Origin: Mycobacterium sp. | GTDB taxonomy: Bacteria; Actinomycetota; Actinomycetes; Mycobacteriales; Mycobacteriaceae | Reading direction: 5' to 3' | DNA: 36,568 bases | NCBI GenBank assembly: GCA_020438905.1 | Contig: JAGQTQ010000077.1 | Span: forward strand, 1 to 36,568 | Part shown: positions 33,596 through 36,568 of the stretch, in pieces | Position numbering within the stretch: position 1 is the first letter of the stretch | Layout of the letters: each line of letters opens with the position of its first letter | The notes under the pieces: generated by a model | Databases searched by the model: none | What the model saw: the letters and a program-made list of their open reading frames with translations, nothing else | Told to the model about the DNA's origin: nothing | Program-made: the position numbers and the translations under genes

Positions 33596-33853
33596 CTAGT
33601 CGGTTGGGCGGAAATATGGTTCAACGGTGCCGCTGAGCTTGATGACCATGGGGTTTCCACGACGGTCCCTGGCGGTGGGAACTTCAACACGCACCCAGCC
33701 CTCTGCCACGTCGTACTCGTGAACATTGTTCTTCTCGACGCCGTTGAAGCGAATACCCACGTCGCGGCTGAGCACCTCTTCGCTGTAGAACGGGCTGCGC
33801 GGATCGATGGAGAGGTGGTTCGGCGGAACGTCTGCGATCTGATCCTCGGACAT
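33596..33853 (-). CDS. DUF3297 family protein
   Basis: 85 residues matching the DUF3297 family over its whole length: PPNHLSIDPRSPFYSEEVL, RDVGIRFNGVEKNNVHEYDV, EGWVRV, RRGNPMVIKLSGTVEPYF. The family is widespread in proteobacteria and actinobacteria; no function is established. It converges on the RsbW-like gene with a 107-bp gap. A palindrome TGAGTCG/CGACTCA (33880-33895) lies 27 bp upstream and could be its operator or an old terminator of the tRNA locus next door. Confidence 0.9.
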   Translation of the reverse strand: MSEDQIADVPPNHLSIDPRSPFYSEEVLSRDVGIRFNGVEKNNVHEYDVAEGWVRVEVPTARDRRGNPMVIKLSGTVEPYFRPTD

Positions 33854-33948: not shown

Positions 33949-33992
33949 TGGTGGAGCCGCGGGGACTCGAACCCCTGACCCCAGAGTGCCAG
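33949..33992 (-). pseudogene. Diverged tRNA 3' half (outermost att core)
   Basis: On the minus strand this reads from an anticodon-loop-like CTGGCAC through a T-arm (GGGGTTCGAGTCCCC) to an acceptor strand CGGCTCC and an encoded ACCA. The 5' half of a tRNA is missing. Compared with the copy at 34766 it has two substitutions and a one-base loss in the anticodon stem and variable loop, and a different acceptor strand (CGGCTCC instead of TAGCTCC). It marks the far boundary of the two small islands. Confidence 0.75.
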
Positions 33993-34066
33993 AAACGGGC
34001 ATAGCCCCTGAACAGGCAGTTCAGGCTCATTCTTGGGCTGAAGTTGGTGTCATAGAGGTCGTAACT

Positions 34067-34097
34067 GTCGTCAGGGTTGTCGTCAAAATTGTCGTCG
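34067..34097. repeat. Left-end arm-type repeats, island A
   Basis: GTCGTCA at 34067-34073 and 34079-34085 and GTCGTCG at 34091-34097, a strict 12-bp period. The array looks like arm-type binding sites of a tyrosine integrase and is repeated with identical spacing at 34881-34911. Confidence 0.65.
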
Positions 34098-34101
34098 ATC
34101 T

Positions 34102-34338
34102 TCAGGCGGCGGGGTGATCGCCTTGGTCAAGCTTCTCAGCGATCCAGACCTTGATGAGCGACTGCCGAGTGACGCCGAGTCTGGTTGCCTCACGGTCGAG
34201 TTCGGTGATCATCCACGCCGGGAAATCCACATTCACACGCCGGTGTTCCTCACCGGGGCGCCGCGCCCGAGCGGTATCCAGAGCGGCCGCCATGTCCTCG
34301 CCGGCATCGAATCGCTCCTCGAATTCCTTAGCCTTCAT
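34102..34338 (-). CDS. brnA: BrnA-type antitoxin (CopG/RHH-like)
   Basis: 78 residues: MKAKEFEERFDAGEDM, then a short linker and the ribbon-helix-helix RRVNVDFPAWMITELDREA, ending RLGVTRQSLIKVWIAEKL. This is the layout of BrnA/CopG-family antitoxins encoded after BrnT. As known for BrnA, it should dimerise, neutralise BrnT and repress its own promoter. The gene starts 6 bp after the brnT stop. Its stop codon is only 4 bp from the arm-type repeats of the island end, so the cargo fills the element completely. Confidence 0.88.
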   Translation of the reverse strand: MKAKEFEERFDAGEDMAAALDTARARRPGEEHRRVNVDFPAWMITELDREATRLGVTRQSLIKVWIAEKLDQGDHPAA

Positions 34339-34344
34339 AAATCG

Positions 34345-34590
34345 TCACCTCGTTCTCTCGAGAGGGGCGTACCGAGATGATTCGCCGTGTTCATCCCGAT
34401 ACGTCACCACCGCCGACCAAACCCGGCCGCCGATCCGGCCGATCACCATCCACCGAGGCTCATCCGTCGTCCGCGCCGGAACTTCGATGCGATGCGTATC
34501 CCGACACAAGGTCTGCGCCTCGGTGAAGTCGATACCGTGCTTGAGCAGGTTTGCCTCACTCTTGGCGGGGTCAAACTCGAACTCAGGCAT
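34345..34590 (-). CDS. brnT: BrnT-type toxin (DUF497 ribonuclease)
   Basis: 81 residues of the BrnT family: FEFDPAKSEANLLKHGIDFTEA at the N-terminus, the middle strand RWMVIGRIGGRVWSAVVTYR, and a basic end SSRYAPLERTR. BrnT is a RelE-like ribonuclease that stops translation. The typical downstream RISARRA-like stretch is shortened here (SSRYAPLERTR), so activity is probable but not certain. It is upstream of and nearly joined to brnA, the usual order. TATGAT lies 8 bases before the ATG, within an imperfect palindrome. Together with brnA it forms an addiction module, the whole gene content of island A. Confidence 0.88.
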   Translation of the reverse strand: MPEFEFDPAKSEANLLKHGIDFTEAQTLCRDTHRIEVPARTTDEPRWMVIGRIGGRVWSAVVTYRDEHGESSRYAPLERTR

Positions 34591-34605
34591 GTATAAAAAT
34601 CATAC
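34591..34605. promoter_or_regulatory. brnTA promoter/operator candidate
   Basis: An AT-rich imperfect palindrome (GTAT ... ATAC, 15 bp) directly before the brnT ATG, overlapping the -10-like TATGAT on the minus strand. Autorepression by BrnA at such a site would be usual for the family. Confidence 0.4.
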
Positions 34606-34645
34606 CTAAACTACTCATTTCGCGCCGACGGTCCTCAAACTTCAG

Positions 34646-34701
34646 TGTGGTGACACCACATTGCGGGCAGCGGTCCCACAACGCCGTCAAAACTGTCGTC
34701 A
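34646..34701. repeat. Right-end sites of island A
   Basis: A perfect palindrome TGTGGTG-A-CACCACA (34646-34660), then GCCGTCA (34683-34689) and GTCGTCA (34695-34701) 12 bp apart. The same two kinds of site recur at the right end of island B (36436-36483) with the palindrome arms turned outward. Confidence 0.6.
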
Positions 34702-34728
34702 AACGCCCCCACCGGCCCGCACCCAGCA

Positions 34729-34760
34729 AAAAACCCGAGGCCTCACGGCCTCGGGTTTTT
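34729..34760. terminator. Rho-independent terminator (tRNA type), copy 1
   Basis: A perfect 14-bp stem AAAAACCCGAGGCC (34729-34742) and GGCCTCGGGTTTTT (34747-34760) with loop TCAC, six A on one side and five T on the other, so it works both ways. Its distance to the tRNA-half copy equals that at the right edge, so it was carried with the element. Confidence 0.9.
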
Positions 34761-34765
34761 GATTG

Positions 34766-34807
34766 TGGAGCTAAGGGGACTCGAACCCCTGACCCCCACA
34801 CTGCCAG
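34766..34807 (-). pseudogene. tRNA-Ala(GGC) 3' half, internal att core
   Basis: On the minus strand: anticodon loop CTGGCAG (anticodon GGC), stem TGTGG, variable loop GGGTC, T-arm AGGGG-TTCGAGT-CCCCT, acceptor strand TAGCTCC and discriminator A. It begins exactly at the anticodon loop; the sequence before it (CCTGTTC) does not pair with TGTGG, so the 5' half is missing. Such 3'-half copies are what tyrosine-integrase elements leave at a tRNA target. The Ala identity is read from the GGC anticodon and typical sequence, not from a complete gene. Confidence 0.8.
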
Positions 34808-34880
34808 GAACAGGCATGACCGCTGAACAGGCAGTTCAGGCCCATTTTCGGCTGCAGTTGGTGTCGTTGGGGTAGTAACT

Positions 34881-34911
34881 GTCGTCAGGGTTGTCGTCAA
34901 AATTGTCGTCG
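34881..34911. repeat. Left-end arm-type repeats, island B
   Basis: GTCGTCA at 34881-34887 and 34893-34899 and GTCGTCG at 34905-34911. This 31-bp block is identical to the one at 34067-34097. Confidence 0.65.
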
Positions 34912-35003
34912 GTCCAGGCATGGAATCACCGGCGCGACAGCCCTTCGACCGGCTCCCCACAAAGGGGAACCTACCTCTGCGCTCCCCACCGCAGCATGAT
35001 GTA

Positions 35004-35066
35004 TTGATGGTTACAAACAGCGGTTATGATGATTAATATCTGTCGTAGCGACTTTTTGTAAGGAGG
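35004..35066 (+). promoter_or_regulatory. Promoter and ribosome site of the fic gene
   Basis: TTGATG (35004-35009) and TATGAT (35025-35030), 15 bp apart, lie in a stretch far richer in A and T than the rest of the window. AAGGAGG (35060-35066) stands 8 bases before the ATG at 35075 and decides that start over an out-of-frame ATG at 35068. Confidence 0.5.
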
Positions 35067-35074
35067 TATGCATC

Positions 35075-36253
35075 ATGCTGTTCGAGCCGCCGGAACTGGA
35101 CGCTCGCGAGCACGAGGTCATCTCCGAAATCGACGAACTTCGCCAACGACTGCGTTCCCGCCTCTACGAACCGCGCCGCTGGACGGGCTCCCTGCGCCGC
35201 GTGCAATTCGCCCGCGCAGTCCAGGGCTCCAACAGCATCGAGGGCTATGAAGCCAAACTCGACGATGCGCTCGCCATCGAGATGGGCGAAGAGGCGCTGG
35301 ATGCGAGCGAAGAGACCGCCTTGGCTATCAAGGGCTACCGCGATGCGATGACCTATGTCCTCCAACTTGCCGAGGAGCCCCGGTTCCGTTTCGAAGAGCA
35401 GCTCATCAAGAGCCTTCACTTCATGATGACGAACTACGACCTGAAGAGCCGCCCCGGCCGCTGGCGCGCGGGCCCCATCTACGTCCAGAAGGAAGAGACC
35501 GGAGAGATCGTCTACGAGGGCGTCGACGTGGATTCTGTCGATGCCCTCTTGCATGAACTCGTCACCTACCTGGAATCCGATGGCGACATCCCCATCGTCG
35601 CCAAAGCCGCGATGGCTCACCTCAACCTCGTATTGATCCATCCCTTCCGAGACGGAAACGGCCGGATGGCGCGCTGCCTCCAAACCCTGGTGCTCGCCAG
35701 GGAAGGAATCGTTTCCCCGGTCTTCTCCAGCATCGAGGAATATCTCGGCCAGGACACACGCTCGTACTACGACGTGCTCGCCGAGGTCGGAGCCGGCTCA
35801 TGGCAACCAACCAGAGATACGCGGCCCTGGATTCGCTACGTGCTCACCGCTCATCTGCGCCAAGCGAAAACCGTTCTGCGCCGGACCAAAGAGATCGAGA
35901 CGGTGTATCTCGAATTCGAACGCCTCGTCGCCCGTTACCGACTACCGGAGCGAACACTCGAAGCCCTCTTCGACGCCACCTCCGGGCTCAGAGTCCGGCG
36001 GGCCGTCTACCGCGCGATCCTCGAAAACCAAAGCGATGATCCGGTCAGTGAACAGACCGCAACCCGCGACCTGCAGAGCCTCACCAATCATGGGCTCCTC
36101 GTCGCTCACGGCGAACGCCGCGGACGCTATTACACGGCAGGCCCCGAACTCGCCGCCATCCGTGAGCGCGTTATCAAGAACCGCGATCCCCGCGACGACT
36201 CCGACCCTTTCGCCGTTCCGGCGTCGGATTCATCCCAAGAAGGCCTGTCCTAG
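35075..36253 (+). CDS. fic: Fic/DOC-family AMP-transferase with inhibitory motif
   Basis: 392 residues. The Fic core carries the complete motif HPFRDGNGRMAR (189-200), with catalytic His189, so it can in principle transfer AMP from ATP to a protein hydroxyl. The N-terminal helix contains the inhibitory motif (S/T)xxxE(G/N) as SNSIEG (52-57), which marks a self-inhibited class II Fic protein. The C-terminal part (about 300-370) looks like a winged helix (SEQTATRDLQSLTNHGLLVAHGERRGRYY), often present in stand-alone Fic proteins. No antitoxin gene is beside it, in line with built-in inhibition. It is the sole gene of island B. The target is unknown. Confidence 0.94.
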   Translation: MLFEPPELDAREHEVISEIDELRQRLRSRLYEPRRWTGSLRRVQFARAVQGSNSIEGYEAKLDDALAIEMGEEALDASEETALAIKGYRDAMTYVLQLAEEPRFRFEEQLIKSLHFMMTNYDLKSRPGRWRAGPIYVQKEETGEIVYEGVDVDSVDALLHELVTYLESDGDIPIVAKAAMAHLNLVLIHPFRDGNGRMARCLQTLVLAREGIVSPVFSSIEEYLGQDTRSYYDVLAEVGAGSWQPTRDTRPWIRYVLTAHLRQAKTVLRRTKEIETVYLEFERLVARYRLPERTLEALFDATSGLRVRRAVYRAILENQSDDPVSEQTATRDLQSLTNHGLLVAHGERRGRYYTAGPELAAIRERVIKNRDPRDDSDPFAVPASDSSQEGLS

Positions 36254-36435
36254 ATTTCCCGGCCCACCCCGCTTGCAGCTTTCACTTCCACCTCCAAGTT
36301 CCTCCGGGTCTGAATCAGACAAATAGCAGCACTTGAAGCGGTCAATCAGCCTTGCCAGAACGTGAGTCGGCACGCGTATCTCTGCAGCGTTGGAGGTACG
36401 GCGCGTGGTCGTTCGCAAGCTACACACCCCATGTG
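36254..36435. other. Non-coding stretch after the fic gene
   Basis: 182 bp of lower GC between the fic stop and the right-end sites of island B. I see no credible gene, clear hairpin or promoter in it. Confidence 0.4.
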
Positions 36436-36483
36436 CACCACACCAGAATGTGGTGGTCAGTCGTTGTCGTCAAACTGTCGTCA
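36436..36483. repeat. Right-end sites of island B
   Basis: CACCACA (36436-36442) and TGTGGTG (36449-36455) form an inverted repeat with a 6-bp centre, followed by GTCGTCA at 36466-36472 and 36477-36483 (11-bp period). Same site types and order as at 34646-34701. Confidence 0.6.
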
Positions 36484-36510
36484 AACCGCCCGGGCCGCCT
36501 CCACCCAGCA

Positions 36511-36541
36511 AAAAACCCGAGGCCTTCAGCCTCGGGTTTTT
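36511..36541. terminator. Rho-independent terminator of the tRNA, copy 2
   Basis: A 13-bp stem AAAAACCCGAGGC (36511-36523) and GCCTCGGGTTTTT (36529-36541) with loop CTTCA. It lies 5 bases past the tRNA 3' end on the minus strand and matches the copy at 34729-34760 except near the loop. Confidence 0.9.
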
Positions 36542-36546
36542 CTCTG

Positions 36547-36568
36547 TGGAGCTAAGGGGACTCGAACC
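36547..36568 (-). tRNA. tRNA 3' end, probably Ala(GGC), cut by the window edge
   Basis: The last 22 bases read, on the minus strand, as the end of a T-arm (GGTTCGAGTCCCCT), acceptor strand TAGCTCC and discriminator A. They are identical to the 3' part of the half-tRNA at 34766. With the terminator just downstream, this is most simply the working tRNA gene entering the window. Only the 3' end is visible, so it could instead be another half copy, with the gene further right. Confidence 0.7.

Follow-up and report, generated by a model that had tools for sequence, protein, structure and literature searches.

Chromosomal integrons hold arrays of small cassettes that lack an integrase of their own, and such cassettes carry toxin-antitoxin and defence cargo. 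Tandem islands without an integrase have also been described at RNA genes. Cis-mobilizable elements (CIMEs), as treated in PMC5704250, are elements that have lost their integration and transfer genes while attL and attR are kept, and they lie next to an integrase-bearing element, arranged in tandem at the 3' end of a tRNA gene. The ssrA islands of Dehalococcoides are likewise found in tandem with copies of the 3' end of the RNA gene, 16 with an integration module and 15 without (PMC3146451). Actinomycete integrative and conjugative elements (AICEs) of the pSAM2 type combine RepSA, FtsK, a helix-turn-helix (HTH) Xis and a tyrosine Int at a tRNA 3' end (PMC3218068). The Mycobacterium AICEs in that survey all have serine recombinases except Mkan24688, its main text does not mention tRNA-Ala, and the pertinent section of a Mycolicibacterium survey speaks of few AICE reports in the family. 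Excerpts of these sources, together with PMC8190616 and PMC7478629, were compared with a locus at the right end of a 36,568-base stretch of Mycobacterium sp. DNA (the window; bases 1-36568 of the 40,681-base contig JAGQTQ010000077.1). It contains two small units, U1 and U2, stacked against a tRNA-Ala gene. Each is quite probably a non-autonomous, site-specific integrative cassette that is mobilised by the integrase of a separate element. The contig comes from a draft of 3.69 Mb in 189 contigs that is 84.9% complete and has the appearance of a metagenome assembly.

Two closed units at a tRNA-Ala gene

The locus reads, in order, DUF3297, a core copy, U1, a second core copy, U2, the real tRNA-Ala gene and a gene of the major facilitator superfamily (MFS). 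An earlier note on this DNA had described three copies of a tRNA 3' half. All three are present, with coordinates that shift by 1-2 bases, and the third is the genuine tRNA-Ala gene rather than a duplicate. Its 5' part lies just beyond the window and ARAGORN found no complete tRNA inside it; the contig runs 4.1 kb past the window and contains the rest of the tRNA-Ala, with its middle masked as N, followed by the MFS gene. The attachment (att) core is 43 bp long and reaches from the anticodon loop as far as the 3' end of the tRNA. The anticodon is masked in this gene and is GGC in related loci. Between the cores, U1 measures 814 bp and U2 1,780 bp, in line with the units of about 0.8 and 1.8 kb with matching ends that had been proposed.

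Arm-type repeats are found inside both ends of each unit, as had also been noticed. Three TGTCGTC words with a 12-bp period follow the core, the first of them 74 bp (U1) or 73 bp (U2) beyond the core, and one or two further words and a terminator-like hairpin precede the next core. Nine of the 11 plus-strand TGTCGTC words of the window fall within these ends (Table 1). The single module assigned to each unit was recovered by profile searches, BrnT and Fic by Pfam and BrnA by NCBIfam, so that U1 carries BrnT and BrnA and U2 a single Fic protein. The latter contains HPFRDGNGR and SNSIEG, which we take to be motifs of the catalytic and self-inhibitory types. Neither the list of open reading frames (ORFs) nor an integrase profile gave an integrase in U1 or U2, and searches with FtsK, RepSA, Xis and Int of the elements described below gave no match in them, which agrees with the claim that both units lack a recombinase.

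Table 1. Features of the attachment locus (window coordinates)
Feature	Position	Strand	Evidence or remarks
DUF3297 gene, left chromosomal flank	33596..33853	-	Pfam DUF3297, E 6e-35
att core copy 1, displaced tRNA-Ala 3' half	33951..33992	-	degenerate, 37/43
U1 left arm sites	34066..34096	+	TGTCGTC at 34066, 34078, 34090 (+74, +86, +98 from core end)
BrnA antitoxin	34102..34338	-	NCBIfam NF047399, E 7e-35
BrnT RNase toxin	34345..34590	-	Pfam PF04365, E 2e-18; no NCBIfam match
U1 right arm sites	34682..34701	+	TGTCGTCA at 34694; weaker copy (2 mismatches) 12 bp before
tRNA terminator-like hairpin, U1 right end	34729..34760	-	perfect inverted repeat; not listed by simple terminator scan
att core copy 2, tRNA-Ala 3' half, U1/U2 boundary	34765..34807	-	43/43
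U2 left arm sites	34880..34910	+	TGTCGTC at 34880, 34892, 34904 (+73, +85, +97)
Fic-domain protein, stand-alone	35075..36253	+	Pfam Fic, E 1e-14; best PADLOC model SoFic, E 7e-50
U2 right arm sites	36465..36483	+	TGTCGTCA at 36465 and 36476
tRNA terminator-like hairpin, U2 right end	36510..36542	-	inverted repeat and a second repeat; not listed by terminator scan
3' end of real tRNA-Ala gene, continues past window	36546..36568	-	contig continuation

About 3 kb beyond the tRNA, at the contig end (L010 6475-7682), a frame was seen by eye to resemble an HK97-type phage major capsid gene. With other small frames nearby, it possibly marks a prophage or satellite near the tRNA-Ala locus.

The end geometry recurs in Mycobacteriaceae and Nocardiaceae

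A fixed 74-bp geometry pattern was scanned in 396 genomes of the same genus, one genome per species, with a reversed pattern as control. The geometry was found at 51 sites in 44 genomes and the control gave none; the 51 sites and 44 genomes are lower bounds because the pattern misses U2 and other variants with 73 or 75 bp. A pattern scan of a contig collection (84,980 species by its description) returned 46 stretches, of which 42 bear titles of Mycobacteriaceae or Nocardiaceae (Mycobacterium, Mycolicibacterium, Nocardia, Skermania, Antrihabitans and metagenome-assembled genomes of these families). Three of the 46 (L045, L075 and L078) do not have the three-arm geometry and were left uncounted. 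A looser filter yielded 99 left ends, 59 of them distinct, and the stricter filter used here left 54 distinct ends. The first arm lies at 74 bp in 43 of these, at 73 bp in six, at 75 bp in three and elsewhere in two, and thus at 73-75 bp in 52 of 54. An initial search had matched 21 of 301 genomes; among the matches listed, those in g24 were chance hits in an rpL5-like gene, and the window's genome (G000), G239, G112, G029, G026 and G032 were retained. L016/L038 (G194), L018, L040 and L041 were dropped, not being clearly of the same family.

Small units and their cargo

From 93 entries, duplicates included, units closed on both sides and no longer than 3 kb were collected and deduplicated, and U2 was added as closed by the masked tRNA. 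This gave 22 closed units in 17 genomes, U1 and U2 included; the further units with other cargo that the earlier note had suggested looking for thus exist. Duplicate loci were counted once (L050=L037, L052=L109, L054=L090, L059/L062=L091, L081=L039), and some genomes occur under two labels (for instance G310/G525, G315/G535 and G307/G481). For cargo calling, one protein per type was scanned and the other members were assigned by nucleotide match. The most frequent cargo consists of AAA_14-DUF4143 ATPases of two types (A and B; eight units), which correspond to the PADLOC candidate PDC-S01, followed by BrnTA in four units of 812-822 bp (G000, G310, G322 and G326). Fic is present in two small units, with one more seen by eye upstream of a core in G026, and AbiEii with a partner in two, with an AbiE piece in the G308 unit. 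HepT-MntA (above the Pfam and below the NCBIfam cut-off), a DUF5615 PIN-like protein and an ABC-F-like protein (by eye, G239) were found in one unit each, and the cargo of two units (G032 and G315a) is unclear. Recurring cargo types sit beside different neighbours. The G239 unit (L034 7714-10696) is 3.0 kb long with the same left end, one ABC-F-like ATPase and 53% GC, and its right end shows no clear TGTCGTC pair.

An integrase ORF is absent by profile from 21 of the 22 small units. The remaining one, in G308, holds a 279-aa piece, which was considered as a helper remnant and rejected: with no more than 36% identity to the cognate integrase defined below, it is not a decayed copy of that enzyme. 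Traces of helper genes are missing from 20 units; beside the G308 piece, only a weak 68-residue match in G307 (E 5e-4) was seen. These results bear on the possibility that the units are relics, i.e. integrase-bearing islands that decayed to their ends and a stabilising toxin module, as in classic CIME decay, and are now inherited vertically. The definition of CIMEs in PMC5704250 would fit, and decay does occur at this site, as an interrupted cognate integrase in G316 and the degenerate outer cores of G000 and G310 illustrate. Against it stand the near absence of integrase remains, the near-constant length of the BrnTA units in four genomes, the recurrence of the two DUF4143 types in eight units, and the varied neighbours and stack positions. 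Such an origin is unlikely, and the comparison with host genes given below bears on it from both sides.

Larger closed units (5.9-11.6 kb) lack an integrase in eight of 11 cases; L100, L101 and, in interrupted form, L098 have one. A 10.2-kb integrase-less unit of M. litorale F4 (L092 2851-13086) has the same left end and an arsenic-resistance-like gene set, recognised by eye. Among integrase-less units of 10.2-10.3 kb, L145 (G460) adjoins a 23.4-kb integrase-bearing element and L140 (G635) stands alone at the tRNA.

Stacks, core decay and an empty site

Stacking is not confined to the window. In a close relative (G310, MFS gene 92% identical), three cassettes and an element with xis and int occupy the same tRNA, with a contig break between them. 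The array runs DUF4143-B, BrnTA, DUF4143-A and then a fourth left end that extends to the contig end, while a separate contig contains xis, int, right arms and an intact tRNA; the two parts are taken here to form one element across the break. M. gastri has three cassettes, G032 at least two, and in G460 a 10.2-kb integrase-less unit lies beside a 23.4-kb integrase-bearing element. The outer cores are more degenerate (37/43 in G000, 34 and 39/43 in G310) than the inner ones (43), which is what insertion of newer units beside the tRNA would give; the cores of M. gastri (43, 43, 40) break this pattern.

DUF3297 also adjoins the first core at several other occupied sites. An empty site, which the earlier note had suggested looking for, was identified in G347 of the same genus, where DUF3297 and a terminator are followed by an intact tRNA-Ala and no unit. 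The MFS neighbour is absent there and a phosphoglucomutase-like gene, a neighbour in other genomes as well, adjoins the tRNA. Of the 19 loci with the intact-tRNA pattern (18 genomes), none but that of G347 has DUF3297 in the 1.5 kb shown. The note had also considered that relatives might always carry the same DNA in this place, or that the similar ends might belong to one larger element with its own integrase. Relatives were found to differ in the DNA that occupies this site. U1 and U2 are each bounded by tRNA copies, and chromosomal genes flank the pair.

Integrase genes of other kinds terminate next to the outer tRNA core at L064 (4233-5375) and L071 (1202-2095), and several element families therefore appear to share tRNA-Ala.

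Separate elements that carry an integrase and share core and arms

The integrase that adjoins the tRNA in G310 served as the cognate integrase query. Long matches of at least 59% identity were obtained in 20 of the 396 genus genomes, the next long match being 39% identical; shorter pieces of 71-73% identity (about 117 residues) in G485 and G657 were left out of the 20. Left ends were found in 17 of the 20 integrase-positive genomes versus 27 of the 376 without (Fisher p 2e-15), which also means that 27 of the 44 left-end genomes have no long match to the cognate integrase. Four of the 20 integrase loci extend as far as a tRNA-Ala(GGC), which is preceded by a TGTCGTC-like pair in all four. The other loci, apart from those of G604 and M. 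gastri, end before any tRNA. Sister integrases of 37-39% identity lie at tRNA-Pro in all five cases examined, without TGTCGTC pairs. The M. gastri integrase (L239 687-4053, about 60% identical) is located beside tRNA-Arg(ACG) with a TGTCGTC pair, not tRNA-Ala, and the similar G604 integrase (L230, about 60%) beside tRNA-Ser/tRNA-Arg(ACG), again with such a pair. In these two the arm sequence was apparently kept and the tRNA target changed.

An integrase-bearing element with the same ends had been called for in the earlier note, and a separate xis-int family, several members of which are pSAM2-type AICEs, does share the core and arms at the same tRNA. The 23.4-kb element L102 encodes RepSA, FtsK, an HTH Xis-like protein and Int, and the 5.9-kb element L100 of N. 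jiangxiensis RepSA, GntR and Int; FtsK-like matches were also obtained in N. pneumoniae and N. puris. Neither FtsK nor RepSA was found in the parts of the elements examined in G310, G304, G334, G316 and G320. The innermost G310 element was considered as an AICE, and because the search for pSAM2-type FtsK and RepSA revealed only Xis and Int in those parts, it is called a xis-int element here. The 23.4-24.5 kb element with RepSA, FtsK, Xis and Int was seen in L036 and L102 (G029), in L103-L104 (G340) and in others. In 11 genus genomes the 80 listed bases of its left end do not differ, which suggests recent spread across species. When left ends were compared with gaps, both U1 (87.7%) and U2 (88.6%) matched the fourth one of G310 best.

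Another integrase with the same tRNA target, for instance that of a prophage, might instead move the cassettes, with the TGTCGTC arms being incidental. M. abscessus prophages such as prophiGD05-1 do have the 3' end of tRNA-Ala and a copy of the terminator in common with the cassettes, and the unrelated integrases beside the core in L064 and L071 and the integrase piece in the G308 unit could be read in this way. The ends of prophiGD05-1 carry a different repeat, TTAGTGATGA, in place of TGTCGTC, no phage record matched the cassette left end and no viral contig had the end geometry. All 39 phage records with an integrase match are less than 60% identical to the cognate enzyme (32.3% for the first listed). 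We regard this explanation as most improbable. A phage satellite was rejected on the same absence of left-end and geometry matches and on the different arm repeat of the prophage with the same core. Plasmid carriage was rejected as well: in the 15 rows listed out of 23 plasmid records, the match to U1 is confined to the BrnTA cargo (query 135-614 at most) and leaves out its ends, a query of the tRNA and left end matched plasmids in its first 43 bases only (24 rows), and Fic relatives on plasmids are less than 60% identical.

Evidence for movement

Identities of cassettes were compared with those of host genes for 20 same-cargo pairs, 14 of which gave values for both cassette and MFS gene and six gave no MFS value. 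Four pairs are far more alike than the host marker genes and the others not clearly so. These are the DUF4143-B cassettes of G310 and G342 (interior 95.7% versus flanking MFS 78.9%), the AbiE cassettes of G323 and G448 (84.9% versus 72.8%), the DUF4143-A cassettes of G307 and G310 (82.6% versus 69.5%) and those of M. hodleri and M. gastri (G307/G315b; 90.6% versus 84.9% for rpoB regions). Such pairs would not be expected from relics. They are also difficult to reconcile with exchange among mycobacteria by homologous recombination in the conserved flanks and common ends, without any current role of an integrase. Exchange could make use of a locus that is orthologous in many genomes with the MFS gene on one side, and the ends of different cassettes are indeed alike in the clade of the window. 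The flanking MFS gene, however, does not travel with the near-identical cassettes, the units occupy different stack positions, the junctions lie at the tRNA core and the position of the first arm is nearly constant. Exchange of this kind is accordingly very unlikely.

Several observations weigh against movement by a separate integrase. Cassette identity exceeds MFS identity in 12 of the 14 pairs, only three of them by more than 10 points, and falls below it in two. The BrnTA quartet tracks the chromosome (77.8-87.4% versus 76.0-92.2%), which favours the relic explanation and is, U1 included, compatible with older or partly vertical descent. The association between arms and integrase partly counts the integrase-bearing elements' own ends, and the nearest right ends to U1 and U2 are those of other cassettes, not of the G310 xis-int element. 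The window's own genome, only 85% complete, has seven integrase-domain matches, none of the cognate family. No excised circle or strain-level gain or loss was seen in this sample of one genome per species. For several hosts, that of the window included, the assembly is, or seems to be, derived from a metagenome; named strains among the hosts include M. gastri, M. hodleri and Skermania sp. Sequence comparison gives good support to the horizontal movement of some cassettes, and for U1 such movement is no more than possible.

The ends were compared with gaps since one-base shifts mislead ungapped alignment. In the clade of the window, left ends group by lineage and not by cargo, the BrnTA end of U1 being nearest the fourth end of G310, the Fic end of U2 and a PIN end in G313. 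Among DUF4143-B left ends, the nearest match has the same cargo in three of five (G309, G317 and G310a); that of G315c ties with the fourth G310 end and that of G342 is nearest a DUF4143-A end. Either local helpers impose the end sequence or cargo has been swapped between ends.

Relation to described elements and proposed mechanism

U1 and U2 apparently retain attL and attR, as core copies and arm sites are kept at both ends, and contain no integration or transfer genes, only BrnTA and Fic having been found. As with the CIMEs of PMC5704250, they are in tandem at a tRNA 3' end, and cassettes co-reside with an integrase-bearing element in G310 (across the contig break) and G460. Their ends are shared with xis-int elements, and helper traces that might record a decay origin were seen in two of 22 small units only. 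In contrast to the CIMEs described there, the cassettes are very small, carry one module, recur in distant species in different orders, and often occur in genomes without a long cognate integrase match. Compared with the Dehalococcoides islands in PMC3146451, which involve the serine recombinase DsiB, tmRNA and rdhA cargo, the present family involves a tyrosine integrase, tRNA-Ala, arm sites and single toxin or defence modules. An AICE has its own int, rep and FtsK-type transfer genes. L100 has int and rep, L102 all three, and the cassettes none of the pSAM2-type genes. An integrative and mobilizable element would encode its own integration and excision, and no integrase is present in U1 or U2. 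Integrons rest on an IntI platform, and the cognate integrase scores 32 bits against a cut-off of 265 bits for integron integrases; unlike integron cassettes, the units are bordered by a tRNA core and arm sites, their genes lie on either strand and the integrase comes from a separate element. Only BrnTA or Fic was called in the two units, which also sets them apart from phage satellites. No report of such cassettes in mycobacteria appeared in the searches made of open-licence PubMed Central papers. Since tandem integrase-less islands at RNA genes are already described, the cassettes are only a variant of something known, and they are best filed as a variant of CIMEs, a tRNA-anchored array of non-autonomous cassettes.

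A cassette in this reading consists of the tRNA-Ala 3'-half core and three left arms, a single module for toxin, stress or defence functions, and then one or two right arms with a terminator that restores the tRNA's own. The helper integrase would bind the TGTCGTC arms and recombine the cassette at the tRNA core. Each insertion would rebuild the tRNA 3' end and leave the old core copy outside, which allows cassettes to pile up and outer cores to degenerate. Movement from cell to cell would probably take place in cis, in a composite circle with the helper, or alternatively with the integrase acting in trans after DNA entry by another route. Toxin or antitoxin cargo may help to hold a cassette in place. 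Overall, the comparisons support the cassette interpretation of the earlier note; that the cassettes are parasitic, as it proposed, is something we only infer.

Significance

Single-gene defence and toxin-antitoxin modules evidently move between bacteria, while the vehicle for such small pieces is usually unclear. The 43-bp tRNA core with three spaced arm sites, common to integrase-bearing elements and to cassettes of less than 1 kb, offers a concrete and testable vehicle. The ABC-F-like and arsenic-like cargo of integrase-less units with the same left end (G239 and M. litorale F4) indicates that this route is not limited to toxins. A broader picture is quite possible and is put forward tentatively: mycobacteria and their close relatives may possess an integron-like storage platform without a resident integrase, in which tRNA-Ala(GGC) is the anchor and a roaming xis-int element the source of the recombinase. 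Single toxin, stress and antiphage modules would circulate as independent cassettes of 0.8-3 kb, with ends tuned to the integrase of the lineage and with swapped cargo. The core and arm signature provides a means of finding further defence-type genes. It also offers mycobacterial genetics a minimal att system of natural origin, and the locus may be a case of integron-like arrays forming without an integron.

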